This document shows, one piece after another, positions 7,156 to 36,614 of a stretch of DNA of 64,000 nt; the first letter of the stretch is position 1; each line of letters starts with the position of its first letter. The DNA lies in NCBI RefSeq assembly GCF_002804005.1, contig NZ_CP024965.1, positions 310,001 to 374,000 of the forward strand, in the 5' to 3' direction. The translations under genes and the position numbers were made by a program. The stretch comes from Williamsoniiplasma somnilux. Its GTDB lineage: Bacteria; Bacillota_I; Bacilli_A; Mycoplasmatales; Mycoplasmataceae. Under the pieces are notes generated by a model. It worked only from the letters and a program-made list of their open reading frames with translations, had not been told where the DNA came from and ran no database searches.

Positions 7156-7190
7156 AAAACCAATCAACATTCCGGTTGATTGGTTTTTTG
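7156..7190 (+). terminator. Intrinsic terminator after sepF
   Basis: A 13-bp stem AAAACCAATCAAC (7156-7168) pairs with GTTGATTGGTTTT (7175-7187), followed by TT. It ends the division operon. Confidence 0.92.
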
Positions 7191-7382: not shown

Positions 7383-7517
7383 TATAATCATATTGTAGGA
7401 GATAAAATGTTGTTTTAAAAAACACTAAATTTTATATATCTCTTTTAATTTAATATTCATTTTTATTATTTAAAAAAGTAATATGTTCTTAACATCTTGC
7501 TATTTGAAAGGAACAAA
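7383..7517 (+). promoter_or_regulatory. Promoter and structured leader of cassette A
   Basis: The gap 7191-7517 has no gene. It holds a -10 box TATAAT at 7383-7388 in the context TAGTATAAT that recurs before cassettes B, C and D; no clear -35 is visible. The leader of about 130 nt contains GGAGATA (7398-7404) able to pair with TATCTCTT (7437-7444) with two G-U pairs, matching a perfect stem in copies B and C. A second, imperfect repeat (ATGTT/AACAT) lies before the Shine-Dalgarno sequence AAAGGA (7508-7513). Confidence 0.7.
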
Positions 7518-9644
7518 ATGAAAAAGGAAAATAGTAAAGTAAGAAGTAAATTAAAATATGTTTTAATTTTACTTATTCTATTTATTACTATTGCGACAAT
7601 ATCTTTTGTGGTGCTTCAATTATCGCAAAAAAACATAAAAAATATTTCAGAAATAAAAAATGAACTTCAAACCACTTTAAATAATAAACTTAATTCCAAA
7701 TGAGATGTAAATGAACTTCAGAAAGAAGTTGACAACAAATGAGGGACTAAACAAATAACTGTAAAATTTATTTCTACCAGTGATAAAGAAAAAACAAATA
7801 ATTATGTAAATAATTATATGAATATTTTTGAACGGAAAATTCACAATGACACTTATTCATTTATAGGTAATGCTTCTAAAGAAAACAATTTTATATATAG
7901 TGGGTCAATAAATTTAATTCATAGTTATAGTGATATTAATAATAATTTGCAACCAATTACAAAAATAAACGATGACCTTCAAAAAATATTGGATGAAAAA
8001 ACAAATCAAGCTTGAACATTTAGAGAGTTGCAAGCAAGAATTAATAAAGATTATGGTGATGGTTCAATAACCGTTGAAGAGTTAGAAACAACTACTGAAA
8101 ATTTTTTTTCAAAAACGACAGAATGAAAGTTTATTGGTAATGGGACTTTAGAAAACACATTTCCATACGAAGGTTCAACTATTTTAAAACATAAATGAGA
8201 CGATAGTTTGGTTTCATTTATTGATATAACTTTAGTTGAACAAGAATTAAATGAAATACTTCAGTCTAACCATAATTCTGAATGAGATAAATGGAAATTA
8301 GAAGAAGCGATTGTTGAAAGCGGACTTGAGACAAACGGTGGAATTACTGTTGAAAAAATAAGGTCAAAAAAAACTCGTTCTTCAATTGGTGGACCTCAAC
8401 AAACCACATGAGAATTTACTGGTAATGCTAATGAAAACAATGATTTTATGTTTGAAGGTAAAATGGCTCTTGTTCATAATTGGAATGACAAAATTGACAC
8501 AACACAAGATATTTCTGACAAAGAAATAGTTAATAGACTTCAAATAATTTTAAACTTACCTGATTACAAAACTAAATCTTGAAATAAAAATAAATTAGAA
8601 CAAGCAATTGTAGATGCCAAAATTGATATTGCTGGTGGAATAACTGTTGAAGAAGTAGAAACAGTAGAAACTACTCGTTCTTCAATCGGCGGACCACATA
8701 TTACCATTTGAAAATTTATTGGTCATGGAAAAGAAAGTAATAATTGAAAATACTGAGGAACTATAAATTTAAATCATGAATGAAATAATAAAAAAGACAC
8801 AACAAAACCAATTTCTAACATTAAAGTTGAATTAAAAGCGATGGTAAATTCAACAGAATATAAAAACAAAGCTTGAATTCAAGATGATTTGCAAATGGCT
8901 GTTAACAAAAAATGAGCAGGAGCAGGAATCACTGTATCTCAAAAAAATATTTCATCAATTCATTTATTTGAAGAAAAACCACAAGTTACAACTTGAATAT
9001 TTACCGGTAATGGAACTATAAACAATAATTTACCATATAAAGATAGTGTTGAAATAATTCACAATTGAGTTGAATTAATTCCAGAAACTCAAGATATTGA
9101 ATTAATTAAAGATGAACTAACACTAATAATTAATATGGAAAAAGACAAAACTTGATCTAAAATTGAATTGCAAAGTGAAGTCGACATTACATATGGAGTT
9201 GGAGAAATAACAGTGATTGATCAGAATGAAGCAATAAAAGGTCGTTCTTCAGAAATTGTACCAATGTTTAAAACGTGAATATTTAAAGGAAACGATACAG
9301 CCGAAAACCAATTAAAATACTCCGGAGAAACATCAGCAATTCACTCTTGAACAGAAAAAATAGATACATCAATAGATATTTCAACTATTAATGATAAATT
9401 AAATATTTTAGTCAATGATGAAGCTCACAAAGATAAACCCTGAACCTTAGAAGAATTGCAAAATACTGTAAATTCAAAATTTAATGATGGAGAAATTGAG
9501 GTTCAAATTAAAATTAAAAACAGTAATTTTGTTGATAACAATGAACATGATGACACTTACGTTTTTATTGGAAAAGGTAATATTGATAACAGTTATAAAT
9601 ATAAAGGTTTAACAGAAGTAACTCATATATGAACTTTAATTTAA
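7518..9644 (+). CDS. Repeat surface-protein-like protein, short type (cassette A)
   Basis: 708 residues; I do not recognise the family. The start is the ATG 5 nt after AAAGGAAC. Residues about 14-36 (VLILLILFITIATISFVV) form one hydrophobic segment after a basic N-terminus, with no lipobox Cys: a membrane anchor with the rest probably outside. Then come seven units of about 90 residues with the pattern: helix with LQ.ILN, 'W...EL...I', 'GGITVEE', aromatic strand 'TTW.FTGNG', strand ending 'L.H.W'. The last unit stops at VTHIWTLI. Its last four units closely resemble the corresponding late units of the neighbouring 1173-residue protein (for example ESNNWKY and AVNKKW.G.GITVSQK). Almost all Trp codons are TGA. 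The protein has no Cys that I could find. Adhesin or antigen is an inference. Confidence 0.88.
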
Positions 9645-9718
9645 GAAGTGTTAAAAACATTTTGAAATAAAATAAAAAGTTTGTGCGGCGAACTTAATTT
9701 CGCAAAAAGGAGACTAAT

Positions 9719-12700
9719 ATGAAAAAAGATAAACCAATTTTTAAAAAAATGGGCTTATTATTTGTAACGGCTTTACCATTCGCTGGATCAGCAGTCTTTG
9801 CAATTAGCGCAATGAAATATAATGTAAAAAACGATTCAAAGAATATCAGTGTTCTAGAAAATACATTACAAGACATTTTAAATGAAAAAAAAGATTTTCC
9901 TTGAACTAAAACAGAACTTGAGAACAAAATTGTTCAAAAAAAACTTGATATTGATGGAGGAATATCAGTTCAAGAATTAGGATCAAAAAGAACAACAGCA
10001 AAAAATGAACGTGAAATTATTACAACTTGAAAATTCATTGGTAATGCTAAGATAACTAATCCTTACACTTATAATGATGAAATTATCATTGAACACTATC
10101 ACACAGAACCAAGAAATAGTGTTCAAAGCATTATTAAAATTCAAAAAGATTTACAAAAAGTTTTAAATAGTAATCTTGATGAATGAAATAAACAAAATTT
10201 AGAAGCTGCAATTGTTGCGGCAAATATTGACATCACCGGAGGTATTACAGTTGAAAATACTGGAACTTCATTTTTAAGATCATCACAAATTGTTTGAAAA
10301 ACAACATCATGAACCTTTATGGGTAATGGAGTTAAATACTCAGGCAAAACAACACTAAGTCATAAGTGAATAAGTAAAACTGATGCAAGCATAGAGATAG
10401 ATACTATCAAAGATAAATTGAATGATGTTGTAAATAATCGGAAAAAAACTCAATGAACGGTTGATGAATTAAAAACGGCTATTTTCTCGGCTGGAATAGA
10501 TGTTAAAGATGGTTTTGATATTGAAGATATCACACCTAAATCAGAGCAAAATCGTTTAGGTGAAGGAGGGCCTAAAACAACAATCTGAAAATTCACAGGC
10601 AAAGGTTCAGTTAATAACAATTATAAATACAAAAATTCTGTAACAATTAATCATGCATGAAATGATTTACATGATGTTTCTCAACATATTTCCCATGCTA
10701 AAGAACAAATAATTGAAATTTTAAATTCTAGAACTAATAATGCTTGAAACGAAACAGATTTATTAGAAGCATTAACTAGTTCAAAAAATCCGATTGATAT
10801 CAAAGGAGGTTTAACAGTTTCTAAGTTAGAAAATTCTAAAACTCGTTCTTGACAAGGTTCTGATCATATTGATTCATGAAAAATTATAGGAAATGGAAGA
10901 GTTGACAATGATTATAAATATAAAGGGGAATTAACTTTAAAACATGAATGAAGTGATAAATCGGATACGACACGTGAGTTAAGCGAAATTCAACCAACCA
11001 TTGAAAACATTGTTAGTGAGAGAAAAGATTCTTTATGGACTCAATATGAATTGCAAAAAATTATAGATGATTCTGGTTTAGATCCTATCAAAGGAGCAAT
11101 TATTGTTTCTAAGCAAGAAGTTTTTAATGAACGTTTGCATGAAAATTTGAGTGGTTCAGAAACTTGGGTATTTACTGCTCGAGGTAACAAAAACAATAAT
11201 TTTAAATTCAAGGGTTCAATAACTGTCGTTCATAAGTGAAGTACGACAAAAGATAAAACTAAAAGCATTTTAGAAAAAAGTTTAGATCTAAAAACTATTT
11301 TAAATTTAAGAACTAGTAGTTCTTGATCCAAAGAAGAACTAGAACAAGAAATTGTAAAAGCGGGAATTGATTCTCAGGGTGGTATTGAAGTTAAACAAAT
11401 AAATATAGATTTAAATACACGTTCTTGAGGTGGTAGTTGAGAAAAAGCATCTTGAGAATTTAGCGGTAAAGGTGATATAAGTAATGATTGAAAGTACAAT
11501 GGAAGTGTTACTTTAAATCATGAATGAGATAATAGTTATGATACCACTGTTGATATTGGCAATGTAGAATCTTTATTACAAGGAGTTTTGGATTCACGAC
11601 CAAGAAGTGCTTGAACCAAAGAGGAATTAGAGACCGAATTAGTCTCAAAAGGCATTGATGAACAAAATGGGATATTAGTAAAACAAGTGATTCCCAATAT
11701 TGAAAGTCGTTCATCAGTTGGAGCAGAAATCGAAGATACTTGAGAATTCATTGGTAACGGAAATGAATTAAATCAATATTTGTTCAATGGTAAAATTCAA
11801 TTAAGACATCAATGAAGTGATAAAATGGATACCACTGTTGATATTGCTACTATTATTAATGATTTACAAATAATTTTAAATTCTGAAGAATACAATAAAA
11901 AAACTTGAGATAAACCCACATTAGAACAAGCTATTGTGGACGCTAAAATTGATCTTGTAGGAGGAATTACTGTTGAAGAAGTTGACACAGTAAAAAATAT
12001 TCGTTCTTCAACAGGAGGACCACATATTTCTACTTGAAAATTTACTGGTCATGGAAAAGAAAGTAATAATTGAAAATACAAAGGTAGTACAGTATTAGAA
12101 CATAAATGAAATAATACAATTGATACAACAAAGCCGATTTCTGTTATTCAAGATGAGTTAAAAGCAATGGTAAATTCTGCAGAACACAAAAACAAATCTT
12201 GAACTCAAGAAGAATTACAAATGGCTGTTAACAAAAAATGAGTAGGATCTGGAATTACTGTATCTCAAAAAAACACTTCATCAACTCGTTCATTTGTTGA
12301 AACACCAAAAACCACAACTTGAATTTTTACAGGTAATGGAAATATAAATAATGATTTACCATATAATGAAAGTATTGAAATAGTTCACAATTGAATTCAA
12401 ATTACTCCAACGACTAAACACATTGAATCAATTAAAACCGAACTTGAAACAATAATTAATAAAAGAAAAGATAAAACTTGAACTAAAGTTGAATTGCAAA
12501 GTGAAATTGACAATGTATATGGTCTTGGAGAAATAACGATTATTGATTCAAGCGAAATAATTAAAGGTCGTTCTTCAGGAACTGCATCTCTTTCAAAAAA
12601 TTGAACATTTAAAGGAAATGGTACAGATGCAAATCAATTAAAATACTTCGGAGAAACTTTAGCAATTCACTCTTGAACAGAAAAAATAGATACATCAATA

Positions 12701-13240
12701 GATATTTCAACGATTAATGATAAATTAAATATTCTAGTCAATGATGAAGCACATAAAGAAAAAGCTTGAACATTAGCTGATTTGCAAAAAGCTGTTAACA
12801 CACGTTATGGCGTTGGAGAAATTGAGGTTAAAGCGAAAACTAGAAACATTCGTCTTGCTGAGAAAAAAGAACATAGAAATACTTACATTTTTATTGGAAA
12901 GGGTAATATCGGAAATAATTATAAATATAAAGGTTCAACAGAAGTAGTTCATGTTTGAAATCAAAGAATTAAGGACATTTCTATAAATTGATGAAAAGAT
13001 CAGCAAGTATTAACTATTCTTCATGGAATTTTAAATAGTAAACCATTAATTTATAAATGAACGGTAGATGCATTTCAAAAGGAAATTGAAGCAAAATTTC
13101 CACCAATGTCAGGACTTAAGGTAATTAGTGCTACGCGATCAATTGATTTTAAGGAATATATTTATATTCAAGGAATTGCCACAATGGATAATGATTTCAT
13201 TTACTATGGAGATGCACAAATTTGAAGGTATTGATTATAA
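9719..13240 (+). CDS. Repeat surface-protein-like protein, long type (cassette A)
   Basis: 1173 residues, unknown family. The ribosome-binding site is AAAAAGGAG (9705-9713). The N-terminus MKKDKPIFKKMGLLFVTALP starts a basic-plus-hydrophobic segment (about 11-32) ending SAVFAISA, which could be an uncleaved anchor or a signal peptide; there is no lipobox. It is followed by 12 units of about 90 residues, counted by their 'H.W' ends (EHYH, SHKW, NHAW, KHEW, VHKW, NHEW, RHQW, EHKW, VHNW, IHSW, VHVW and a variant last unit ending IWRYWL). Each unit probably has two helices (LQ.ILNSR; WTK.EL..AIV.A.ID) then three strands (GGITVEEV; TTW.FTG.G; YKY.GS..L.H.W). Two other copies of the same length lie downstream. 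Trp is encoded mostly by TGA. No similarity to a characterised protein is evident to me. Confidence 0.9.
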
Positions 13241-13302
13241 AACATTATAAAAATTATTAATATTTAAAACCAAATGATAATTTTGTAAATAATTAAAGAA
13301 AT

Positions 13303-13346
13303 AAAAATTGAAATTGAAAGAATTAAATCTTTCAATTTCAATTTTT
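13303..13346 (+). terminator. Intrinsic terminator of cassette A
   Basis: An 18-bp stem AAAAATTGAAATTGAAAG (13303-13320) pairs with CTTTCAATTTCAATTTTT (13329-13346). The same stem, with small changes, ends cassettes B and C. Confidence 0.88.
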
Positions 13347-13440
13347 AAAATTATTGTTTTATAACGATTTTACAACGGTGTACAGTGTCTTAATAAAAAT
13401 ATTATAAATACCATCAACAATACATAACTATAAATTTTAG

Positions 13441-13579
13441 TATAATTACATTATAAGAGAGATAAGATTATTTTTTAAAAAAATATTAATTTTTTATATA
13501 TCTCTCTTAATTTAATATTCATTTCTATTATTTAAAATAACAAAATGTTAAAAACATTTTGTTATTTGAAAGGAACAAA
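13441..13579 (+). promoter_or_regulatory. Promoter and structured leader of cassette B
   Basis: The 339-bp gap 13241-13579 holds the copy A terminator and this leader. The -10 box TATAAT is at 13441-13446. Two strong inverted repeats follow: TAAGAGAGATA (13454-13464) with TATCTCTCTTA (13499-13509), and AAATAACAAAATGTT (13535-13549) with AACATTTTGTTATTT (13553-13567), a perfect 15-bp stem with a 3-nt loop that ends directly against the Shine-Dalgarno AAAGG (13569-13573). The second stem could control ribosome access. Confidence 0.75.
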
Positions 13580-15342
13580 ATGAAAAAGGAAAATATTAAA
13601 TTAAGAAGTGAATTAAAATGTGTTTTGATTTTAATTATTTTATTGACTATTATTTTAAGAATATTTTTTGTTGTGTTTCAATTATCGCAAAGACGCAAAA
13701 AAAATATTTCAAAAATAAAAAATGATTTTCAAAACATTTTAAATAATAAATTTAATTTTAAATGAGATGTAAATGAACTTCAAAAAAAAGTTAATAACAA
13801 TTGAGAGTCCATAAAAATAACTGTAAAATTAATTTTTACTAATAATGAAGAAAAAACAAAAGACTCTGTAAATAATTACATGAGTATTTTAGAACGGCAA
13901 ATTGATAATGGCATTTATTAATTTATAGATAATGTTTTTAAAGAAAATGATTTTATATATAAGGAATCAATAAATTTAATTCATATTTATAATGATATTA
14001 ATAATAATTTGCAACTAATTACAAAAATAAAAGATAATCTTCAGAAAATGTTAATAAAAAAAATTAAACTTGAAAAAACTTGAAAATCGGAAAATTTGTA
14101 AACAAGAATTAATAAAAGTTATGTATTTTATTATTTAATAAATGTTGAAGAATTAGATATAAATACTGAATTTTTTTTCAAAAAAATAGAAATTTACTGA
14201 TAATAAAACTTTAGAAAACACATTTGCATATAAAAATTCGCCTGTTTTAAAACACAAATTAAATGAAATATTTCAATCTAATAATAACTCTTAATGAGGT
14301 AAAAATAAATTAGAGCCAAAATTGCAAATGATGGCATTTATATTATATTAGAGATAATTTTTGAAACAATAAAAACTATTCGTTCTTCAATCAGTAAGTA
14401 ACAAGTTACTATTTAAAAATTTGCTGATAATAAAAAAGTAGTGATTAAAAAAACTAAGAAACTACAACTTTAAATTATGAGTTAAATAATAAAAAAAATT
14501 TAACAAAACAATTTTTAAAATTCAAGTTGAATTAAAAGCAATAATAAATTCGGGAAAACACAAAAACAAAACTTGAATTCAAGACTTTCTAAAAATGACT
14601 ATTGACAAAAAAAGAACGAGATTTGAAATTATTGCATCTTAAAAAATTTTTTATCAATTTGTTTATTTAAAAAAACCATTAATCATGACATGAGGAGTGT
14701 TTATTGATAATGAAATTATAAACATTGATTTATCATATAAAAATAGTGTTTAAATAGTTTCCAAAAAAAATTTAATTAATTCCAAAAGCTCAAAATATTA
14801 AATTAACAAAAAATAAATTTATATTAATAATTAATATTAAACAAGATATAACTTTATTTAAAATTTAATTGCAAAGTTAGCTTGATACTACACATAAAAT
14901 TAGAGAAATAATATTTATTGATCAAAACGAAGTAATGAAATTTTGTTTTTCAGAAATTATACTACTATTCAAAACCTGAACATTTAAAGAAAACGATAAA
15001 GCCAAAAATAATTAAAATATTTCAAAAAAGCATCATCAGTTTGTCATTGAATAAAAAAACAAATAAATCAATAGATATTTTAACTATTAATGATAAATTA
15101 AACATTTTAGTCAATGATAAAAATCACAAAAATAAACCTTAAATTTTAGAAGAGTTGGAAAATACCATAAATTCAAAATTTAATGACGGAGAAATTGAGG
15201 GTCAAGTTAAAACTAAAAACAGTAATTTTGTTGATAACAATGAACATGATGATATTTGCGTTTTTATCGAAAAGGTTAATATTGAAACAGTTATAAATAT
15301 AAATGTTTAAAAGAAGTAACTCATATACGAACCTTTATTTAA
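13580..15342 (+). pseudogene. Decayed short-type repeat gene (cassette B)
   Basis: A copy of the 708-codon gene of cassette A that has lost its frame. The N-terminus is still readable (MKKENIKLRSELKCVLIL) and keeps its ribosome-binding site, but TAA at 13919-13921 stops translation after 113 codons, and many later stops follow. Several are former TGA Trp codons turned into TAA by one G-to-A change, for example 14414-14416 (TGA in copy A at 8709-8711) and 15140-15142 (TGA at 9441-9443). One repeat unit's worth of sequence is missing compared with copy A, around 14270-14340. Similarity continues to the former stop region (TAA 15340-15342). Mutations are strongly toward A+T, as expected for unselected DNA here. 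Confidence 0.9.
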
Positions 15343-15416
15343 AAAGTGTTAAAAACATTTTTAAATAAAATAAAAAGTTTGTGCGGCGAATTTAATTTCG
15401 CAAAAAGGAGATTAAT

Positions 15417-18400
15417 ATGAAAAAAAATAAACCAACTTTTAAAAAAATGGGCTTATTATTTGTAACGGCTTTACCATTTGCTGGATCAGCAGTCTTTGCA
15501 ATTAGCGCAATGAATTATAATGTAAAAAACGATTCAAAGAATATCAGTGTTCTAGAAAATACATTACAAGACATTTTAAGTGAAAAAAAAGATTTTTCTT
15601 GAACTAAAACCGAACTTGAGAACAAAATTGCTCAAAAAAAACTTGATATTGATGGTGGAATATCAGTTCAAGAATTAGGATCAAAAAGAACAACAGCAAA
15701 AAATGAACGTGAAATTATTACAACTTGAAAATTCATTGGTAATGCTAAGATAACTAATCCTTACACTTATAATGGCGAAATTATCATTGAACACTATCAC
15801 ACAGAACCAAAAATTAGTGTTCAAAGCATTATCAAAATTCAAAAAGATTTACAAAAAGTTTTAAATAGTAGTCTTGATGAATGAAATAAACAAAATTTAG
15901 AAGCTGCAATTGTTGCAGCAAATATTGATATCATTGGAGGTATTACAGTTGAAAATGCTGGAACTTCATTTTTAAGATCATCACAAATTGTTTGAAAAAC
16001 AACATCATGAACCTTTATAGGTAATGGAGTTAAATATTCAGGTAAAACAACGTTAAGTCATAAGTGAATAAGTAAAACTGATGCAAGCATTGAGATAGAT
16101 ACTATTAAAGATAAATTGGAAGACGTTGTAAATAATCGAAAAAAAACTCAATGAACGGTTGATGAATTAAAAACGGCTATTTTCTCGGCTGGAATAGATG
16201 TTAAAGATGGTTTTGATATTGAAGATATCACACCTAAATCAGAGCAAAATCGTTTGGGTGAAGGAGGTCCTAAAACAACAATCTGAAAATTCACAGGTAA
16301 AGGCTCAGTAAATAACAATTATAAATACAAAAATTCTGTAACAATCAATCATGCATGAAGTGATTTACATGATGTTTCTCAGCACATTTTTCATGCAAAA
16401 GCTCAAATAATTGAAATTTTAAATTCTAGAACTAATAATGCTTGAAATGAAACGGATTTATTAGAAGCATTAACTAGTTCAGAAAATGCAATTGATATCA
16501 AAGGAGGTTTAACGGTTACTAAATTAGAAAATCCTAAAACTCGTTCTTGACAAGGCTCTGATCATATTGATTCATGAAAATTTACAGGACATGGAAAAGC
16601 TGACAATGATTATAAATACAAAGGTGAATTAACTTTAAAGCATGAATGAAGTGATAAATTGGATACGACTCGTGAGTTAAGCGAAATTCAACCAACCATT
16701 GAAAACATTGTTAGTGAGAGAAAAGATTCTTCATGGACTCAATATGAATTACAAAAAGTTATAGATGATTCTGGTTTAGATCCTATCAAAGGAGCAATTA
16801 TTGTTTCTAAGCAAGAAACTTTTAATGAACGTTTGTATGAAAATATAAGTGATTCAGAAACTTGAGTATTTACTGCTCGAGGTAACAAAAACAATAATTT
16901 TAAATTCAATAATTCAATAACTGTTGTTCATAACTGAAGTACAACAAAAGATAAAACCAAAAGCATTTTAGAAAAAAGTTTAGACTTGCAAACTATTTTA
17001 AATTTAAGAACTAATAGCTCTTGATCTAAAGAAGAACTAGAACAAGAAATTGTAAAGGCGGGAATTGATTCTCAGGGTGGCATTGAAGTTAAACAAATAA
17101 ATATAAATTTAAATACACGTTCTTGAGGTGGGGGTTGAGAAAAAGCATCTTGAGAATTTAGCGGTAAAGGTGATATAAGTAATGATTGAAAGTACAATGG
17201 AAGTGTTACTTTAAATCATGAATGAGATAATAGTTATGATACCACTGTTGATATTGACAATGTAGAATCTTTATTACAAGGAATTTTAGATTCACGACCA
17301 AGAAGCGCTTGAACCAAAGAGGAATTAGAGACCGAATTAGTTTCAAAAGGCATTGATGAACAGAATGGGATATTAGTAAAACAAGTGATTCCCAATATTG
17401 AAAATCGTTCATCAGTTGGAGCAGAAATTGAAGATACTTGAGAATTTATCGGTAACGGAAATGAATTAAATCAATATTTGTTTAATGGTAAAATTCAATT
17501 AAAACACAAATGGAGTAATAAAATGGATACCACTGTTGACATCGCCGCTGCTATTAATGATCTACAAATAGTTTTAAATTCTGAAGAATACAATAAAAAA
17601 ACTTGAGATAAACCCACATTAGAACAAGCTATTGTGGACGCTAAAATTGATCTTGTAGGAGGAATTACTGTTGAAGAAATTGACACAGTAAAAACTATTC
17701 GTTCTTCAACAGGAGGACCACATATTTCTACTTGAAAATTTACTGGTCATGGAAAAGAAAGTAATAATTGAAAATACAAAGGCAGTACAATATTGGAACA
17801 TAAATGAAATAATAAAATTGATACAACAAAGCCGATTTCTGTTATTCAAGATGAGTTAAAAGCAATGGTAAATTCTGCAGAACACAAAAATAAACCTTGA
17901 ATTCAAGAAGAATTACAAATGGCTGTTAACAAAAAATGAGTAGGAGCTGGAATTACTGTATCTCAAAAAAGTACTCCAACAACTCGTTCATTTGTTGAAA
18001 CACCAAAAACAACAACTTGAATTTTTACAGGTAATGGAAATATAAATAATGATTTACCATATAATGAAAGTATTGAGATAGTTCACAATTGAATTCAAAT
18101 TACTCCAACGACTAAACATATTGAATCAATTAAAACCGAACTTGAAACAATAATTAATAAAAGAAAAGATAAAACTTGAACTAAAGTTGAATTGCAAAGT
18201 GAAATTGACAATGTATATGGTCTTGGAGAAATAACGATTATTGATTCAAGTGAAATAATTAAAGGTCGTTCTTCAGGAACTGCATCTCTTTCAAAAAATT
18301 GAACATTTAAAGGAAATGGTACAGATGCAAACCAATTAAAATACTTCGGAGAAACATTAGCAATTCACTCTTGAATAGAAAAAATAGATACATCAATAGA

Positions 18401-18938
18401 TATTTCAACCATTAATGATAAATTAAATATTCTAGTCAATGATGAAGCACATAAAGAAAAAGCTTGAACATTAGCTGATTTGCAAAAAGCTGTTAACACA
18501 CGTTATGGTGTTGGAGAAATTGAGGTTAAAGCGAAAACTAGAAACACTCGTCTTGCTGAGAAAAAAGAATATAAGAACACTTATATTTTTATCGGAAAGG
18601 GTAATATCGAAAACAATTATAAATATAAAGGTTCAACAGAGGTAGTTCATATTTGAAATCAAAGAGTTAAGGATATTTCTATAAATTGACCAAAAGATCA
18701 ACAAGTATGAAATATTCTTAATGCAATTTTAAATAGTAAACCATCAAGTTATAAATGGACGGCAAATGCATTTCAAAAGGAAATTGATGCAAAATTTCCA
18801 CCAATGTCAGGACTTAAGGCAATTTGAGTTCTTCGATTACCTGATTATAAAGAATATATCCATATTGAAGGAATTGCCACAATCGATAATGATTTTATCT
18901 ATTATGGAGCTGCACAGATTTGAAGAACTTGAATGTAA
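15417..18938 (+). CDS. Repeat surface-protein-like protein, long type (cassette B)
   Basis: 1173 residues, the same length as its copies at 9719 and 20616. The start is ATG after AAAAAGGAG. Same hydrophobic N-terminus and 12 units. Against copy A I count 5 differences in the first 65 residues but 23 in the last 86, so the final unit is much more diverged. Shared differences from copy A (MNYNVKN, KIAQKK, LNSSLDE, LEDVVNN) group copies B and C, while QETFNERLYEN is shared with the cassette D protein, suggesting exchange. Its upstream partner is dead, so it must be translated independently. Unknown function; probably surface exposed. Confidence 0.9.
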
Positions 18939-19148: not shown

Positions 19149-19286
19149 TATAATTACATTATAAGAGAGATAAGATTATTGTTTAAAAAAATATTAATTT
19201 TTTAAGTATCTCTCTTAATTTAATATTCATTTTTATTATTTAAAAAAGTAAAATGTTTTTAATATTTGCTTTTTGAAAGGAACAAA
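19149..19286 (+). promoter_or_regulatory. Promoter and structured leader of cassette C
   Basis: The 348-bp gap 18939-19286 holds the copy B terminator and this leader. The -10 box TATAAT is at 19149-19154. The inverted repeat TAAGAGAGATA (19162-19172) with TATCTCTCTTA (19207-19217) is perfect. The stem before the Shine-Dalgarno is kept only in part (AAAAAGTAAAAT / ATTTGCTTTTT). Confidence 0.7.
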
Positions 19287-20541
19287 ATGAAAAAGAAAAA
19301 TAATAAATTAAGAATTGAATTAAAATATGTTTTGATTTTACTTATTTTATTGTTTACTATTGTCACAATATTTTTTGTAGTTTTTCAATTATGACAAAGA
19401 TACAAAAAAAATATTTCAAAAATAAAAAATAATCTTCAAAACATTTTAAATAATAAGCCTAATTTCAAATGAGATATAAATAAACTTCAAAAAAAAGTTA
19501 ACAATAATTGAGAGTCTATACAAATAACTGTAAAATTGTTTTTCACTAGTAATGAAGAAAAACCAAATTATTTTGTAAATAATTATATGCGTATTTTTAA
19601 ACGGCAAATTTGATAAATGCCACTTATTAATTTAATAGATAATGTTTTTAAAGAAAATGATTTTATATATAATGAATCAATAAATTTAATTCATATTTAT
19701 AATGATATTAATAATAATTTGCAACTAATTACAAAAATAAACAATAATATTCAGAAAAATATAAAAACAAAACTTGAATTCAAGATGTTCTACAAATGAC
19801 TATTGACAAAAATGAACAGGAATTAAAATTATTTTATACTAAAAAATTTTTTGATTAATTTGTTTATTTGGAAAAAACCACAAATCATAACATGAGAGTT
19901 TATTGATAATGGAGCTATAAACAATGATTTACCATATAAAGATAGTGTTTAAATAATTCAAAAATGAATTAAACTCATTTTAAAAAATCAAAATATTAAA
20001 TTAACAAAAGATGAATTTATATTAATAATTAATATTAAACAAGATATAGATTTATTTAAAATTTAATTGCAAAGTTAGCTTGATACTACACATAAAATTA
20101 AAGAAATAATATTTATTGATCAAAACGAAGTAATGAAATTTCGTTTCTCAGAAATTATACTACTGTTCAAAACCTGAACATTTAAAGAAAACGATAAAGC
20201 TAAAAATAATTAAAATATTTCAAAAAAACATCATCAGTTAGTCATTGAATAAAAAAACAAATAGATCAATAGATATTTTAACTATTAATGATAATTTAAA
20301 CATTTTAGTCAATGATAAAAATCACAAAAATAAACCTTAAATTTTAGAAGAGTTAGAAAATACCGTAAATCCAAAATTTAATGATGGAAAAATTGAGGGT
20401 CAAGTTAAAACTAAAAACAGTAATCTTGTTGATAACAATGAACATGATGATATTTGCGTTTTTATCGAAAAGGTTAATATTGATAACAGTTATAAATATA
20501 AATGTTTAACAGAAGTAACTCATATATGAACCTTTATTTAA
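19287..20541 (+). pseudogene. Decayed short-type repeat gene (cassette C)
   Basis: The third copy of the short gene. The readable N-terminus is MKKKNNKLRIELKYVLILLI. An inserted base near 19610 and TAA at 19614-19616 stop it after 109 codons. A large internal deletion joins sequence equivalent to the first unit (near 19750) to sequence equivalent to 'KNKAWIQDDLQ' of copy A. The nonsense codon at 20338-20340 (former Trp TGA) is shared with copy B (15140-15142), so this inactivation came before the B/C duplication. The former stop region is at 20539-20541. Confidence 0.9.
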
Positions 20542-20615
20542 AAAGTGTTAAAAACATTTTTAAATAAAATAAAAAGTTTGTGCGACGAATTTAATTTCGC
20601 AAAAAGGAGATTAAT

Positions 20616-23600
20616 ATGAAAAAAGATAAACCAGCTTTTAAAAAAATAGGCTTATTATTTGTAACGGCTTTACCATTTGCTGGATCAACAGTTTTTGCAA
20701 TTAGTGCAATGAATTATAATGTAAAAAACAATTCAAAGAATATCAGTGTTCTAGAAAATACATTACAAGACATTTTAAATGAAAAAAAAGATTTTCCTTG
20801 AACTAAAACCGAACTTGAGAACAAAATTGCTCAAAAAAAACTTGATATTGATGGTGGAATATCAGTTCAAGAATTAGGATCAAAAAGAACATCAGCAAAA
20901 AATGAACGTGAAATTATTACAACTTGAAAATTCATTGGTAATGCTAAGATAACTAATCCTTACACTTATAATGGTGAAATTATCATTGAGCACTATCACA
21001 CAGAACCAAGAAATAGTGTTCAAAGCATTATTAAAATTCAAAAAGATTTACAAAAAGTTTTAAATAGTAGTCTTGATGAATGAAATAAACAAAATTTAGA
21101 AGCTGCAATTGTTGCAGCAAATATTGACATCATTGGAGGTATTACAGTTGAAAATAATGGAACTTCATTTTTAAGATCATCACAAATTGTTTGAAAAACA
21201 ACAGCATGAACCTTTATAGGTAATGGAGTTAAATACTCAGGCGAAACAACGTTAAGTCATAAGTGAATAAGTAAAACTGATGCAAGCATCGAGATAGATA
21301 CTATCAAAGATAAATTGGAAGACGTTGTAAATAATCGAAAAAAAACTCAATGAACGGTTGATGAATTAAAAACAGCTATTTTCTCGGCTGGAATAGATGT
21401 TAAGGATGGTTTTGATATTGAAGATATCACACCTAAATCAGGGCAAAATCGTTTGGGTGAAGGAGGGCCTAAAACAACAATCTGAAAATTTACAGGTAAA
21501 GGCTCAGTTAATAACAATTATAAATACAAAAATTCTCTAACAATTAATCATGCATGAAATGATTTATATGATGTTTCTCAGCATATCTCCCATGTTAAAG
21601 AACAAATAATTGAGATTTTAAATTCTAAAGTTGACAACGCTTGAAACGAAACAGATTTATTAGAAGCGTTAACTCGTTCAAAAAATCCGATTGATATCAA
21701 AGGAGGTTTAACAGTTTCTAAGTTAGAAAATCCTAAAACTCGTTCTTGACAAGGTTCTGATCATATTGATTCATGAAAAATTATAGGAAACGGAAAGGCT
21801 GACAATGATTATAAATATAAAGGGGAATTAACTTTAAAACATGAATGAAGTGATAAATTGAATACGACTCGCGAGTTAAGCGAAATTCAACCAACGATTG
21901 AAAAAATTGTTAGTGAGAGAAAAAATTCTTCATGGACTCAATATGAATTGCAAAAAATTATAGATAATTCCGATTTAGATCCTATCAAAGGAGCAATTAT
22001 TGTTTCTAAGCAAGAAGTTTTTAATGAACGTTTGCATGAAAATGCGAGCGGTTCAGAAACTTGGATATTTACTGCTCGAGGTAACAAAGACAATAATTTT
22101 AAATTCAATGGTTCAACAACTGTCGTTCATAACTGAAGTACAACAAAAGATAAAACCAAAAGCATTTTAGAAAAAAGTTTAGACTTGCAAACTATTTTAA
22201 ATTTAAGAACTACTAGTTCTTGATCTAAAGAAGAACTAGAACAAGAAATTGTAAAAGCGGGAATTGATTCTCAGGGTGGTATTGAAGTTAAACAAATAAA
22301 TATAAATTTAAATACACGCTCTTGAGGTGGGGGTTGAGAAAAAACATCCTGAGAATTTAGCGGTAAAGGTGATATAAGTAATGATTGAAAGTACAATGAA
22401 AGTGTTACTTTAAATCATGAATGAGATAATAGTTATGATACCACTGTTGATATTGACAATGTAGAATCTTTATTACAAGGAGTTTTAGATTCACGACCAA
22501 GAAGTGCTTGAACCAAAGAGGAATTAGAGACCGAATTAATCTCAAAAGGCATTGATGAACAGAATGGGATATTAGTAAAAAAAGTGATTCCCAATATTGA
22601 GAGTCGTTCATCAGTTGGAGCAGAAATTGAAGATACTTGAGAATTCATTGGTAACGGAAATGAACTAAATCAATATTTGTTCAATGGTAAAATTCAATTA
22701 AAACACAAATGGAGTGATAAAGTGGATACCACTGTTGATATCGCTGCTATTATTAATGATCTACAAATAGTTTTAAATTCTGAAGAATACAATAAAAAAA
22801 CTTGAGATAAACTAACATTAGAACAAGCTATTGTGGACGCTAAAATTGATATTTTAGGGGGAATTACTGTTGAAGAAGTTGACACAATAAAAAATATTCG
22901 TTCTTCAACAGGAGGGCCACATATTTCTACTTGAAAATTTACTGGTCATGGAAAAGAAAGCAATAATTGAAAATACAAAGGAAGTACAATATTAGAACAT
23001 AAATGAAATAATAAAGTTGATACAACAAAGCCGATTTCTGTTATTCAAGATGAGTTAAAGGCAATGGTAAATTCTGCAGAACACAAAAACAAACCTTGAA
23101 CTCAAGAAGAATTACAAATGGCTGTTAACAAAAAATGAGTAGGAGCTGGAATTACTGTATCTCAAAAAAACACTTCAACAACTCGTTCATTTGTTGAAAC
23201 ACCAAAAACGACAACTTGAATTTTTACAGGTAATGGAAATATAAATAATGATTTACCATATAATGAAAGTATTGAAATAATTCACAATTGAATTCAAATT
23301 ACTCCAACGACTAAACATATTGAATCAATTAAAAATGAACTTGAAACAATAATGAATAAAAGAAAAGATAAAACTTGAACTAAAGTTGAATTGCAAAGTG
23401 AAGTTGACAATGTATATGGTCTTGGAGAAATAACGATTATTGATTCAAGTGAAATAATTAAAGGTCGTTCTTCAGGAACTGCATCTCTTTCAAAAAATTG
23501 AATATTTAAAGGAAACGGTACAGATGCAAACCAATTAAAATACTTCGGAGAAACATCGGTAATTCACTCCTGAACAGAAAAAATAGATACATCAATAGAT

Positions 23601-24137
23601 ATTTCAACCATTAATGATAAATTAAATATTCTAGTCAATGATGAAGCACATAAAGAAAAAGCTTGAACATTAGCTGATTTGCAAAAAGCTGTTAACACAC
23701 GTTATGGTGTTGGAGAAATTGAGGTTAAAGCGAAAACTAGAAACACACGTCTTGCTGAGAAAAAAGAATATAAGAATACTTATATTTTTATCGGAAAGGG
23801 TAATATCGGAAACAATTATAAATATAAAGGTTCAACAGAAATTGTTCATGTTTGAAATCAAAGAATTAAGGACATTTCTATAAAATGATGAGAAGATCAA
23901 CGAGCATGAAATATTCTTAATGGAATTTTAAATAGTAAACCATTAAGCTATAGATGGACCGCAGATGCGTTTCAAAAAGAAATTGATGCAAAATTTCCAC
24001 CAATGGCAGGACTTAAGGTAACTGATGCCTATCGTTTACTTGATTTAAAAGAATGAATCTTTATTTCAGGACTTGCTACAATTGATAATGATTTTATTTA
24101 TCGTGGGGATTTATCGATTTGAAGATATTGAATGTAA
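20616..24137 (+). CDS. Repeat surface-protein-like protein, long type (cassette C)
   Basis: 1173 residues, third copy. N-terminus MKKDKPAFKKIGLLFVTALP, anchor segment about residues 11-32, then 12 units. Most units are nearly the same as in copies A and B, but the last unit (about residues 1088-1173) is again distinct, ending FIYRGDLSIWRYWM. Some stretches follow copy A rather than B (KNPIDIKG, KIIGNG, QEVFNERLHEN), so the three genes are mosaics. Trp is mainly TGA. The upstream partner is a pseudogene. Unknown function; surface protein by inference. Confidence 0.9.
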
Positions 24138-24334: not shown

Positions 24335-24361
24335 TTGGTTTTTTTTTTTTTTTTGTATAAT
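24335..24361 (+). promoter_or_regulatory. Promoter-like element with a T16 spacer
   Basis: A run of 16 T (24339-24354) ends one base before a perfect TATAAT (24356-24361). TTGGTT (24335-24340) could act as a -35 box with a 15-bp spacer made almost only of T. A change in tract length would move the -35 relative to the -10, the arrangement known for phase-variable lipoprotein promoters in mycoplasmas. A second TATAAT follows at 24437, and the gene starts at 24574. Function is inferred. Confidence 0.5.
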
Positions 24362-24436: not shown

Positions 24437-24573
24437 TATAATTATTTTTGTAGGAAATATAATAATTGCTTTTTAAAAAATAATTTCAATATTTATTTTA
24501 TTTTAATGGTTTTATTTTATTTTTCAAAAAAGCAAAACATATTTGACATCTTACTAATATGAAAGGAACAAAA
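24437..24573 (+). promoter_or_regulatory. Promoter and leader of cassette D
   Basis: The 436-bp gap 24138-24573 holds the copy C terminator, the T16 element and this leader. The -10 box TATAAT is at 24437-24442 in the same TAGTATAAT context as cassettes A-C. The first leader stem is only partly kept (AAATAT/ATATTT), and the second is weak. The Shine-Dalgarno GAAAGGAAC precedes the ATG at 24574. Confidence 0.6.
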
Positions 24574-26448
24574 ATGAGTAACGAAAACAATGAAAAAAAG
24601 AGTAAGTTTAAAGGACTTTTACTTTTACTTCTTTTATTCATACCTATCGCAACAACAACGTTTGTAGTGTTTCAATTATCACAAAGGAATATAAAAAATA
24701 TTTTAGAAATAAAAAATGAACTTCAAGAGATTTTAGATAAAAAGCTTAATCAAAAATGACAAATTGAAGAGTTACAAAAAGAAATTGATAAAAAATGAGG
24801 GACGGGACAAATAACTGTAAAATTTGTTCCTATTATTGAATATGGAAAAAATGAAGCATTTAATAATGTTTCGAATATTTCTTTTCATAAACCCTATAAT
24901 GATATCTATACATTTATTGGTAATGCTTCTAGAGAAAACGATTTTACATACAATGGATCAATAAACTTAATTCATAGTTATAGTGACATTAATGCTAAGA
25001 TAAGACCAATTTCAGATATTGAAACTTATCTCCAACGAATCTTAGATTCAAGAAAAGGTAAAGTTTGATCTAAAACCGAACTTGAACAAGAGGTTGTCAA
25101 TAGGGGATTGGATGTTAAGGGTGGAATTTTGGTTGAAGAAATTAATGTTAAAAACAATCGTTCTTCAGAGACCAAATCGCGAAACACGACTTGAAAATTT
25201 ATAGGTCAAGCCGATGATAACAACGATTTTCATTTTAATGCTTCCATTTCTCTAGAACATTCTTGAAATAACAAAATTGACACTACTGAAAATATTCGTA
25301 ATAAAACAACAATTACCAAACTTCAAAATCTTTTAGATTCTAAAAATTATAAAAATAAAACCTGAACAGCTGAACTTTTAAAAAATGAAATTGTTAAACA
25401 AGATATTGATGTTTCCCTAGAATTTGGAGGTATAACAGTTCAAGAAGTTGAAACCACTTTAGAAACTCGTTCTTTTACTGGCGGTCAAAAAGTTACAACT
25501 TGAAAATTTACTGGTCATGGAAATTTAGATAATAACGGAAGATATTATGGTAATGTGACTTTAAATCATGAATGAAATGACACAAAAGACACAACACAAG
25601 AAATTAATGTTATTAAAGATGAGTTAATTGATCTAGTAAATTCAATAGAATACAAAAATAAAAATTGAACTAAAGATGATTTACAAGATGCTATTAATGC
25701 AAAATGGGTTGGAGCTGGAATAACTGTTGAAGAAAAACTTGTTTCACAAACTCGTAGTTGGGATGAAAAACAACAAACAACTATATGAACATTTACAGGT
25801 AATGGAGATGTTACAAATCAACATCCTTATAAAAACACTGTTGACATAAAACATAATTGGGTTGAATTAATATCAACTACAAAAAATATTGAAGAAATTA
25901 AATCAGAATTAGTAAATATCTTAAACGAAAAAAAAGAAAATGCTTGATCCCAAGAAGAATTGCAAACAAAAGTTGATGAACTATATGGGACTAAAGAAAT
26001 TACAGTTATTGATCCAAATGAAAATAATGTAATCCACTATTCTATGAAAATCAAAAGTGGAAAATCTTGAATTTTCAGAGGCAATGGGGAAAAAGACAGC
26101 ACAACTAATAAGTTTAAATATTATGGTGAAGAATCAATTACTCATGAATGATTTGAAACTATATCTAACACAATAAGTGTTAAGAATTTAAAAGATGATC
26201 TACAAATATTACTTGATTCACAGTCAAATAAACAACATCCTTGAGATATACTAAAATTACAAAATGCTCTTGATAATAAATATGGAGCTAATGCAATTAT
26301 TGTAAACATTTCTCAACAAAAAATTCCAAATGAATCAGGTGATCATTATGATAAATACAAATTTACTGGTAAAAGTATAGGAATTAATGGTCATCAATAT
26401 ATTGATGAGATTGAATTAATTCATATTTGAAATCCAAGTATAAAATAA
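24574..26448 (+). CDS. Repeat surface-protein-like protein, short type (cassette D)
   Basis: 624 residues, unknown family. An in-frame ATG at 24559 lies within the ribosome-binding region, so the ATG at 24574 (after GAAAGGAAC) is chosen. N-terminus MSNENNEKKSKFKG, then a Leu-rich hydrophobic segment (about residues 14-36), no lipobox. Six units follow, ending 'LIHIWNPSIK'. It is the diverged relative of the cassette A short protein, one unit shorter. Residues around 320-450 are almost the same as a part of the next protein (shared RYYGNVTLNHEWND, TRSWDEKQQTTIWTFTGNGD). Upstream of the long-type gene, it completes a fourth cassette with both members open. Confidence 0.88.
25518..25960 (+). repeat. 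Tract nearly identical to 28875-29300
   Basis: Within the short cassette D gene, the stretch coding from RYYGNVTLNHEWND to TTKNIEEIKSEL matches 28875-29300 in the next gene almost base for base, far more than the rest of the two genes. This suggests recent conversion or duplication between neighbours. The ends are approximate. Confidence 0.75.
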
Positions 26449-26511
26449 CTTAATTTTATTTACTAAGTTAAATAATATTTAATTGATATCTTATTGAAAG
26501 GATATAAAAAA

Positions 26512-29500
26512 ATGAAAAACAACAAACCAAGTTTAAAAAAAATTGGACTACTATTTGTTGCTACTTTACCGGTTGCTGGATCGGCTGCTTTAGCAATGAG
26601 TTCGATGAATCATAATATAAAAGATGATTCAAAAAATGGTTCAAAAAGTATTGGTGATTTAAGAACTGCATTAGAAACAATTTTATCTGAACGAACAAAT
26701 AAGAAATGGTCTAAAGTCGAACTTGAAACTAAAATTACTGAACAAAAATTTGATATTGAAGGTGGAATTACAGTCCAAGAGTTAGGTTCAAAAAGAACTA
26801 CTGCTAAAAACGGTCACGAAATTATTACCACTTGAAAATTTTTAGGTAATGCCAAGGTTACAAACGCTTTTACATATAAAGGTGAAATTATTATTAAACA
26901 TTCTCGTATAGAATCTGAAAATAATACTGAAAGTATTGTTAAAATTCAAAAAGATCTTCAACAAATTTTAAATACCGAAATTAAAGAATGAAGCCAAAAT
27001 GATTTAAAGGATAAGATTGATGAAAAATTTGGAGTTGGAGAAATTACTGTTGAATTGGACAAGTCAACTTTATCTCAAAGATCAGCTAATTTCGAATGAA
27101 AAAATAGCTCATGAAAATTTATTGGAAATGGAGTTAAATTTAAAGATCAAACAACACTAAAACATCAATGAATTAATGAAATTGACGGGAGTCAAGATAT
27201 AAAGAAAATTGAATCAGAATTAACTGAAGTAATAACAAAACGTAAACATAATGAATGAACTGTTGAAACATTAAAATCAGCAATTTCTTCTGCTGGAATT
27301 GATGTAAAAGAGGGATTTAATGTTGAAAAGACTATTTCTAAAACAATTGAAACTCGTTTAGGAAATGGCGGACAACAAAAAACCACTTGAAGAATTACTG
27401 GTAATGGAAGTGTGGATAATAATTATAAATATAATGGTTCTGTGTTGATTGAACATATATGAAATAATTTAACAGATAATTCTAAACACATTTCTTATGT
27501 TAAAGAAAAAATAGTTGATGTTTTAAATTCTAAAGTTAATAACGCTTGAAACGAAACAGATTTATTAGAAGCGTTAACTAGTTCAGAAGATGCAATTGAT
27601 ATTAAAGGAGGTTTAACAGTTTCTAAGTTAGAAAATTCTAAAACTCGTTCTTGACAAGGTTCTGATCATATTGATTCATGAAAAATTATAGGAAACGGAA
27701 GAGCTGACAATGATTATAAATATAAAGGGGAATTAACTTTAAAACATGAATGAAGTGATAAATTGGATACGACTCGTGAGTTAAGCGAAATTCAACAAAC
27801 CATTGAAAACATTGTTAGTGAGAGAAAAGATTCTTCATGGACTCAACATGAATTGCAAAAAGTTATAGATGATTCTGATTTAGATCCTATCAAAGGAGCA
27901 ATTATTGTTTCTAAGCAAGAAACTTTTAATGAACGTTTGTATGAAAATGTAAGTGGTTCAGAAACTTGAGTATTTACTGCTAGAGGTACTAAATTTAATA
28001 ATTTTAAATTTAAGGGTTCAACTACAATTAAGCATACATGAAATACAACGAAAGATAATACCAAAAGTATTTTAGAAATAAGTTTACAATTACAGGATAT
28101 TCTAAATTCAAAATTTAAAAATGTTTGAACTCCAGAAGAGCTTGAACAAGAAATTGTTGCTAAAGGTATTGATTTAACTGGCGGCATTGAAGTTAAAGAA
28201 CATAATTCAGAACAAAAAACTCGTTCATGAAATGGTGGTTGAGAAAAAACTTCATTTACTTTTACGGGTAAAGGGGCAATTAACAATGACTGAAAATATA
28301 ATGAAAGTGTGACTTTAACTCAAGAATGGGATAGCAGTTATGATAGCAGTATAAACATCGAAAAAGTAAGTTACGCTTTACAGCGTATATTAGATAGACG
28401 ATCATTGCAATCTTGAACTCAAGAAGAATTACAACTCGCAATTGATGAAGCTAAAATTGATCCTGTTGGTGCAGGTGGTATTATTGTAAAACAGGTTTTA
28501 CCCGAAATAGAAACTCGTTCTTCAACTGGTGAAATAGATCAAGATATTTGAGAATTTATTGGTAACGGAAACGAAATGAATGAATTCATGTGAAATAACA
28601 AAGTTACTTTAACTCACGTATGAGATAACACAGTCGATACTACTAAAGATATTAATAACAATGAAACAATTATCGAACTTCAAAATCTTTTAGATTCTGA
28701 AAGCTATAAATATAGACCTTGAACACCACAACTTCTACAAGAAGAAATTGTTAAACGAGATATTGATGTTGCTTCAGAACTTGGAGGAATTACCGTTGAA
28801 GAAATAGAAACGGTTATAGAAACTCGCTTGTCTGAAGGAAGTCCCAAAGTTACTACTTGAATATTTATTGGTAATGGAAATTCAGATAATGACGGAAGAT
28901 ATTATGGTAATGTGACTTTAAATCATGAATGAAATGATATAAAAGACACAACACAAGAAATTAATGTTATTAAAGATGAGTTAACTATGCTAGTAAATTC
29001 GACAAAATACAAAAATAAAAAATGAATTAAAGATGATCTGCAAGATGCCGTTAATGCAAAATGGGTTGGAGCTGGAATTACTGTTGAAGAAAAACTTGTT
29101 CCACAAACTCGTAGTTGGGATGAAAAACAACAAACAACTATATGAACATTTACAGGTAATGGGGATGTTACGAATAAATACCCTTATAAAAATACTGTTG
29201 ACATAGAACATAGTTGAATTGAATTAATTCCAACCACAAAAAATATTGAAGAAATTAAATCAGAATTAGAAAATATTTTAAATGAAAGAAAAGATAATGC
29301 TTGACTTCAAACAGAATTACAAACAAAAGTTGATGAAAAATATGGAATTGGAGAAATTACAGTTATTGATTCAGATGCAGTAAAAGCTAAAAATCGTTCT
29401 TGAGGTTTAGAAAACAAAATTAAGAACTGAATATTCAAAGGTATTGGAGAAAATGAAAGCATAACAAATCCACATCTATATTACGGTGAAACAACTCTTG

Positions 29501-29811
29501 TTCACAAGTGAGAACAAAAAGCAGATACATCAATTGATATAGAGGTCATTAAAAATGAATTAAATCGTCTATTAACATCTGATGGTCATTTAAACAAAGA
29601 ATGATCAATAACAGATTTACAACGAGCCGTAGATAGAAAATATGGTGCCGGTGAAATCAAAGTTTCAAGATGAATTTCTAGAAATCGAAACATTTTAAGA
29701 GATGCGTCATTAAGTCATAGTGATAAATATACTTTTACAGGTCAAGGCAATGTTAATAACGATTATAAATATAAAAATTCAATAGACTTGCGTCATACTT
29801 ATTATAATTAA
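26512..29811 (+). CDS. Repeat surface-protein-like protein, long type (cassette D)
   Basis: 1099 residues, unknown family. The start ATG at 26512 follows GAAAGGA; an upstream in-frame TTG at 26494 lies before the ribosome-binding site and is rejected. N-terminus MKNNKPSLKKIGLLFVATLP and a hydrophobic segment to about residue 32, then 11 units ending LRHTYYN. Most of it is clearly diverged from the 1173-residue proteins, except for a block at about 27523-27990 (NNAWNETDLLEALTSS to SETWVFTAR) that is nearly identical to them, and a block at 28875-29300 nearly identical to its own upstream neighbour. It is therefore a mosaic. TGA is the main Trp codon. The gap to the upstream gene is 63 bp, consistent with one transcript. 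Confidence 0.9.
27523..27990 (+). repeat. Gene-conversion-like block shared with cassettes A-C
   Basis: About 470 bp within the cassette D long gene match the equivalent parts of the three 1173-codon genes (for example around 16430-16880 and 21625-22080) almost exactly, while sequence on both sides is much more diverged. The sharp change in similarity is what a conversion tract would leave. It shares QETFNERLYEN with copy B. Ends judged by eye. Confidence 0.8.
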
Positions 29812-30117
29812 TTAACTTAGTAATTAATTTATAAATGGTCCTAAAAACAAATATTGAATTGATATTTTTTCAAAATTGTTTTTGTTAAAAAATATTCGTG
29901 TTGGCAATGCTTGTTGGCAATTCGATACTTAGCAAAAAGAAATTGATTCTGAATTTCTTCATATTTAGATTCAAAGATTGTGAAAACATGGTAAGAAAGC
30001 AAATATGCATAAATCATTAATTAGAGTTAATGAAACAACATAAAATATATATTAATAAATTAAAGGCTTAAGGCTATAATATTTTTTTAATAAATAAAAT
30101 GAAAGGTGATTAACGTT
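29812..30117 (+). other. Gap between repeat genes, no gene seen
   Basis: 306 bp. It has a 37-codon open stretch near 29880-29990 (starting FVKKYSCWQC) without a start or ribosome-binding site, and a short direct repeat TTGGCAAT (two copies, near 29905 and 29918). It may be debris of an older gene, but I recognise nothing. TATAAT at 30075-30080 could be the -10 box of the next gene. Confidence 0.4.
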
Positions 30118-33100: not shown

Positions 33101-33294
33101 CTGCTGAGGTTATAAACACTGTACTTTCATCACTTGGTGAAGACTCATCAGGATTAAAAATTAAAATTAGTATGAATATAGTTGGCGGAAACACGACTCA
33201 TATATATATTGAGCTTATTGGTTTAGGAAATATAAATAATAATTATAAATTTTATAATACAACAGGAACAAAAAGTTTGTACATTTTGCATTAA
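30118..33294 (+). CDS. Repeat surface-protein-like protein, divergent (TTG start)
   Basis: 1058 residues, unknown family. No ATG fits: the ribosome-binding site GAAAGGTG (30101-30108) is followed after about 10 nt by TTG (30118), giving MPIKKFKKISLLFLTTIPIT, a basic start and a hydrophobic segment of the same type as the other long proteins. A GTG at 30106 lies inside the ribosome-binding site and is less likely. About ten standard units follow, ending with L.H.W-like strands (LIHSW, IEHEW, LEHHW and so on), then a shorter atypical end (GLKIKISMNIVGG, ending SLYILH). It has no short-type partner upstream. It resembles the next gene more than cassettes A-D, especially in its first unit (IEKIEK after an 'EDL' helix). 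Confidence 0.88.
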
Positions 33295-33386: not shown

Positions 33387-33403
33387 AAAAAAAAAAAAAA
33401 AAA
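33387..33403 (+). repeat. Poly-A tract (A17) before the last repeat gene
   Basis: Seventeen A in the 137-bp gap 33295-33431, 28 bp before the ATG of the next gene. TTGTTGAAC lies about 25 bp upstream and could include a -35 box. Length change of the tract could affect transcription or translation initiation. Confidence 0.6.
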
Positions 33404-36400: not shown

Positions 36401-36614
36401 TATACCTTGAACTAAAAAAGAATTAGAACAAGCAATTGTGGATGCTGGTATTGATATTGCTGGTGGAATTACCGTTAAATCACATGGTTCGCAAATTGGA
36501 TGACCAGGACAACCGTCATTTACTGAATGAACAATTACTGGCAATGGTAAATTTGAAAATGCTTGAAAATACACTGGTGAACTTTTTATAAAACACTGAT
36601 GAACCAAGTATTAA
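33432..36614 (+). CDS. Repeat surface-protein-like protein, divergent (last of the array)
   Basis: 1060 residues, unknown family. ATG after TAAGGAAAAG. N-terminus MKNNKKTLKHLTLLLLAMIP with a hydrophobic segment to about residue 31, no lipobox. Eleven units follow, with ends such as LNHSW, LTHEW, LKHCL, LNHKF and IKHWW. Individual unit ends have drifted (one contains a Cys, rare in this family). Closest to the preceding gene in the first unit and in several later ones (KWNDKKD.SI.I..I..EI..LL). No short-type partner. The gene ends 46 bp before the promoter of the hydrolase gene, and I see no strong terminator between. Confidence 0.88.

Follow-up and report, generated by a model that had tools for sequence, protein, structure and literature searches.

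The window analysed here, a 64-kb stretch (64,000 nucleotides) of the Williamsoniiplasma somnilux genome, was read as Mollicute DNA with genetic code 4, in which TGA encodes Trp. Under this code, positions 9719–13240 on the forward strand, the strand of all window features described below, form a single open reading frame (ORF) of 1173 amino acids with 41 TGA-coded Trp residues; a sequence-only reading made beforehand had placed its limits exactly. The code 11 reading was discarded, as it yields no ORF of at least 300 aa overlapping 9719–13240. With an iterated profile, residues 38–1173 were found to be tiled almost gaplessly by 12 head-to-tail units of ~95 aa each, with unit E-values of about 2e-32 at best and 3e-12 for the last, divergent one. 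Units 1–11 (residues 38–1084, 9830–12970) are of the canonical ~95-aa type, and the best sister-unit match per unit within the protein amounts to about 31–46%. Unit 12 (12995–13237) forms a divergent C-terminal tip, in which R.W replaces the H.W motif, and is the fastest-evolving segment among three near-identical copies of the gene. Ahead of the units, a hydrophobic segment at about residues 11–32 (9749–9814; hydropathy 1.99 across 19 residues) represents a candidate uncleaved signal anchor. The protein has zero Cys and hence no lipobox Cys after the signal. Pfam and NCBIfam revealed neither a recognised head or known adhesive domain nor DUF285/TIGR02167, for which matches were obtained in paralogues only. 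Behind the gene, a terminator-like inverted repeat of 20 pairs was found by scan at 13302–13347. Immediately 5′ of the RBS, all three 1173-aa copies share a small inverted repeat (around GCGAA ... TTCGC; about 9688–9703, 15386–15401 and 20585–20600).

Overall, 82 units were counted with the iterated profile in eight window ORFs between 7497 and 36614 (6 to 12 units per ORF), a number approximated by the ~90 of the earlier estimate, and all eight proteins carry hydrophobic N-termini. The array opens with a short partner of 715 aa (7497–9644, first ATG at 7518), consisting of a strong TM segment and 7 units, the last four of which are closest to units 8–11 of the 1173-aa proteins. The second and third 1173-aa copies lie at 15417–18938 (92% aa identity to the first) and 20616–24137 (91%). 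Frame-broken relics of the short partner were detected by tblastn between copies 1 and 2 (13559–15339, pieces in three frames) and between copies 2 and 3 (19266–20538); the two relics are about 90% identical to each other. Further downstream follow a 629-aa short partner with a TM segment and 6 units (24559–26448), a 1105-aa protein whose 11 units are collinear with units 1–11 of the 9719–13240 protein (26494–29811), and two proteins of 1062 aa (30106–33294) and 1060 aa (33432–36614) with 11 units each, units 1–10 of the latter being collinear with those of the former and unit 11 not.

Between the 9719–13240 protein and the 1105-aa protein all 11 of 11 units match by position, and in the 1062- and 1060-aa proteins no more than one of units 1–10 fails to pair with its positional counterpart; the unit order is therefore older than the gene duplication. 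In the short genes, the first units of the 715-aa and 629-aa members are closest to each other, and the last units are closest to those of the adjacent long gene (715-aa with the 1173-aa group, 629-aa with the 1105-aa gene). Gene conversion within pairs of adjacent genes would be expected to leave such a pattern. Whereas the units of the 9719–13240 protein are diverged, five near-identical consecutive units each occur in L030 (13916–16051) and G004:C1 (111563–112984), apparently a sign of recent unit amplification.

Fold and conserved residues of the unit

AlphaFold2, supplied with an alignment of the window units only, predicted a single unit with a pLDDT of 90.1 and a pTM of 0.81, comprising helices at 6–17 and 29–38 and strands at 47–54, 65–75 and 84–95. 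For two adjacent units a pLDDT of 91.1 was obtained, with the helix-helix-strand-strand-strand order occurring twice. Due to the lower pTM of the pair (0.63), the prediction does not fix the mutual orientation of adjacent units, which is uncertain. The order of elements proposed from the sequence alone is reproduced in both models, and the accompanying claim of a folded domain rather than low-complexity sequence is borne out by the confident fold together with the conserved core in the alignment of all 82 units; neither disorder nor a core-less alignment was observed.

In column counts over the 82 window units, Trp25, which starts helix 2, is the most invariant residue (81/82), followed by Leu30 (77/82), His89 (74/82), Gly71 (72/82) as well as Trp91 and Ile6 (71/82 each). 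Asn77 is found in 72 of the 75 units having a residue at this position. The hydrophobic pattern of the unit extends over positions 6, 9, 13, 16, 17, 30, 34, 45, 47, 69, 81 and 87. The H.W end had been described as invariant; both residues are indeed conserved, but in view of the counts for His89 and Trp91 the word is somewhat overstated. Similarly, the DTT said to follow often is a common opening of the next unit, as DTT or DTS, yet about half of the units lack it. The noted scarcity of Cys holds for the whole array, with zero in seven window proteins and one in the eighth. Residues 85, 87, 89 and 91 occupy every other position of strand 3 and would therefore lie on the same side as the hydrophobics that point to the core.

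Foldseek searches with the one- and two-unit models gave no match at E≤0.001, either against the PDB or against viral structures. The best VIA-align scores, Z 5.6 and 4.9, were obtained for a T6SS baseplate chain (6gj1_D) and are below the level the tool calls meaningful. Among the weak structural matches, Rib entries hang together best: five of them align with Z 4.3–4.8 and rmsd 3.6–3.7 over 75–76 residues, values within the noise of the tool. A profile search of PDB sequences returned chance matches only, and Pfam and NCBIfam gave scattered weak matches without a relative of the unit. As the fold search revealed no solved relative, no function was transferred; the lack of a fold match is no proof that the fold is new. 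The domain family is real, folded and lineage-restricted, and it is unnamed in the libraries searched.

Genomic distribution and attached domains

In the 868-kb genome, about 150 units occur in 23 ORFs and fragments, located in the window and at five further loci (about 60, 270–282, 707, 792 and 803–810 kb). With about 52 kb of coding sequence, the family fills about 6% of a near-minimal genome and has no Pfam or NCBIfam entry as searched; naming it would supply an annotation for much of the 'hypothetical' protein of a Mollicutes group. The unit profile matched 12 of 60 sampled genomes of one Mollicutes family, in 4 of 12 genera, and a class-wide sample gave matches in 8 of 395 genomes, all in the same family. 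In the congener G002 the profile found no unit. A mobile origin of the units was rejected, as the profile gave no match among viral contigs, phages or plasmids. Elsewhere in the W. somnilux genome, two long proteins of strongly diverged units are encoded at L049 (2511–6254 and 6676–10464), and their C-terminal regions match no family. In another genus, a unit-bearing protein (L044, 3951–7421) carries a second, unrelated-looking tandem repeat of ~83 aa at its C-terminal side.

The array begins directly behind sepF, beside ftsZ. Across the nine genomes of the comparison, a downstream hydrolase gene stays near ftsZ, with a spacing of 29.9 kb here, compared to 3.2–4.5 kb in congeners and about 0.45–0.6 kb in other genera. 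In congeners (L053, L054 and L055), the place of the array between sepF and the hydrolase gene is taken by a gene resembling ribonucleotide reductase. Judged by this gene order, the array represents an expansion at the ftsZ–sepF locus that is specific to the lineage.

Relatives in this genome and others join lipobox or lipoprotein-type signals to the units, and in two other genera, lipoproteins of about 530 aa contain a single N-terminal unit. Signal peptidase I was not found in the genome by two models, the controls of which were positive in 12/14 and 13/14 cases. For this reason an uncleaved anchor is favoured for the non-lipoprotein members and would also apply to the protein at 9719–13240. 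At least six W. somnilux proteins carry PARCEL/DUF285 tails (PF03382, TIGR02167; PMC2996958), which belong to the same Mollicute surface proteome and are fused to units in the paralogues; unlike the unit of 95 aa, PARCEL is a 25-residue repeat of a different fold. Such tails also occur on unit proteins of other genomes. In 13 of 15 PARCEL-bearing ORFs every unit is N-terminal to the PARCEL block. The exceptions are the 2500-aa ORF of L036, in which single units and PARCEL blocks take turns, and L050, which has one unit after a DUF285 stretch. In a congener, two proteins combine units with spiralin domains (PF05215) and spiralin-type lipoprotein signals. The unit itself was rejected as a diverged spiralin domain, with an hhalign probability of <1% for three spiralin stretches of L037 and no Pfam match.

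Proposed stalk function and alternatives

On balance, we consider it probable that the unit is a stalk module, anchored in the membrane, of surface proteins that are specific to the lineage, in part phase-variable and diversifying at their C-terminal tip. The independently folded helix-helix-three-strand domain would act as a spacer in surface proteins of one Mollicutes lineage, with the chain anchored N-terminally in the membrane and presumably protruding as an elongated array from a cell that has no wall. The chain could thereby display a variable tip or head at its C-terminus for adhesion or antigenic variation, His89 and Trp91 at the end of strand 3 may determine the form of the unit or how it contacts its successor, and slipped-strand changes of homopolymer tracts may switch the expression of some copies. 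The fair confidence in this reading draws on the gapless array, the fold, anchors and heads, selection, a junction test, the tracts and stalk precedents (PMC8201768, PMC6936399). Counted against it are the missing recognised head and tract of the 9719–13240 gene and its protein as well as the deviation of L036 and L050 from the order of units followed by head.

In Rib/SHIRT-type and Periscope Protein stalks, small folded domains in tandem space a head from the cell (PMC6936399, PMC8201768); the array described here likewise consists of small folded domains that follow each other with short linkers. Unlike the Rib domain (PF08428), to which it shows no profile match up to E=1 (hmmscan, Pfam-A), the unit has two helices before the strands; in contrast to the Periscope Protein, the units of the 9719–13240 protein are diverged instead of near-identical. 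The unit proteins also differ from both in having an N-terminal membrane anchor, a C-terminal head and no sortase motif. By analogy, the unit most likely works like the Rib/SHIRT-type stalks, yet on the tests made it is no member of those families. The family offers a test of how stalked surface proteins are built in wall-less bacteria without sortase. More tentatively, the fold without solved counterpart could have become the all-round surface scaffold of one group of wall-less bacteria, with interchangeable heads (PARCEL, spiralin or divergent tip units) and some copies switched by homopolymer tracts.

The conserved His and Trp had been left as either structural or part of a binding site in the sequence-only reading. 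In the junction test, for which alignment ends were extended and gene fragments excluded, His89 was present in 92% of the units with a following unit and in 57% of those without (p 1.5e-8), and an aromatic residue at 91 in 96% versus 71% (p 9e-7). The terminal units share ancestry in part, and their counts are not phylogenetically independent; after similar units were collapsed the contrast persisted with p about 0.016 for His89 and 0.0001–0.001 for the aromatic at 91. In the W. somnilux genome alone, p was 0.007 and 0.09, respectively. Trp25, Val47, Asn77 and Tyr81 do not differ between followed and unfollowed units, and Leu30, Phe69 and Leu87 differ a little, Phe69 and Leu87 being slightly lower in unfollowed units. 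Since His89 and the aromatic at 91 drop where no unit follows and most core positions do not, and since the column counts of the 82 units revealed no further conserved His and no conserved Cys or acidic residue that would make a metal or catalytic site, we favour His89 and Trp91 as putative junction or structural residues rather than a ligand site.

These data also bear on the best of the alternatives, in which each unit is a binding domain and the array a multivalent adhesin or receptor with His89 and Trp91 in the recognition site. The conservation of His and Trp on a strand, the existence of single-unit proteins and the mutual divergence of the units, as multivalent binders can show, would fit such a function. 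However, both residues are retained mainly where a further unit follows, Tyr-x-Phe/Tyr replaces H.W in six single-unit lipoproteins, and no conserved polar cluster accompanies His89/Trp91, which makes this function unlikely.

Selection was assessed with the three 1173-aa copies, which share 91–92% identity at an overall dN/dS of 0.26–0.34. Omega amounts to 0.20–0.26 in units 1–11 compared to 0.43–0.81 in the tip unit, where dN (0.15–0.20 vs about 0.03 elsewhere) is 5–6 times higher and dS is 0.25–0.43 vs 0.12–0.14 elsewhere. By these rates the array is shown to be under purifying selection, with a faster-diverging tip. As the dS of the tip is raised as well, its divergence may in part reflect gene conversion homogenising the rest, from which the tip would be relaxed, and diversifying selection is likewise possible. 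A second alternative regards the proteins mainly as a shield or coat, comparable to the Vlp/Vsa proteins of mycoplasmas with their variable length, in which the mass of repeats hides the membrane from antibodies, phage or complement without a specific ligand. The many paralogues filling about 6% of the genome, tracts resembling those of vlp genes (PMC10502178) and the absence of the family from one congener are in accordance with a coat. Vlp-type lipoproteins of Mycoplasma hyorhinis likewise form a multi-gene surface family with tracts upstream of some members; the unit differs as a folded 95-aa domain, and the 9719–13240 gene has no tract. A pure coat would need less constraint than units 1–11 and the kept unit order display, and the tip evolves unlike the rest, so that this alternative appears doubtful. 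An intracellular role or one at the division site, suggested by the start of the array directly after sepF, is very improbable and was rejected, as a terminator-like hairpin (7156–7187) lies between sepF and the array, congeners and other genera keep ftsZ, the downstream hydrolase gene and ileS without an array there, other family genes are found at the five further loci, and all eight window proteins have the hydrophobic N-terminal segment.

With regard to the switching proposed as part of the stalk reading, the only A/T runs of ≥11 in the window are a T16 tract (24339–24354) 205 bp upstream of ORF 24559 and an A17 tract (33387–33403) 29 bp upstream of ORF 33432, both candidate phase-variation tracts in front of array genes. 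The 9719–13240 gene and its two copies have no homopolymer tract upstream. According to a first-order Markov model, the chance of one run of ≥16 in 64 kb is about 8%, so that the argument is based on the genome-wide placement rather than on run length alone. In the 868-kb genome, eight runs of ≥14 A/T occur, four of which sit 29–205 bp upstream of family genes and one beside a family cluster; the other three precede lipoprotein, cytosine methyltransferase-like and ABC transporter-like genes (named from translated starts). A rough count assuming 750 other genes gives p about 1e-5 for the enrichment at family genes. Among the family ORFs with a tract upstream are L030 13931 and L031 2017, and in two relatives a tract of the same length precedes family genes. 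Homopolymer tracts switch vlp genes in Mycoplasma hyorhinis (PMC10502178, PMC2268961), whereas the T-tract upstream of the vpma promoter in M. agalactiae was shown not to switch (PMC2268961); in view of these opposite precedents, tract switching of some family genes is put forward as a hypothesis. The tracts point towards a set of likely phase-variable genes. Runs of 15–18 nt were also observed before lipoprotein, methyltransferase-like, ABC and sugar-uptake-like genes in the genome and its relatives.
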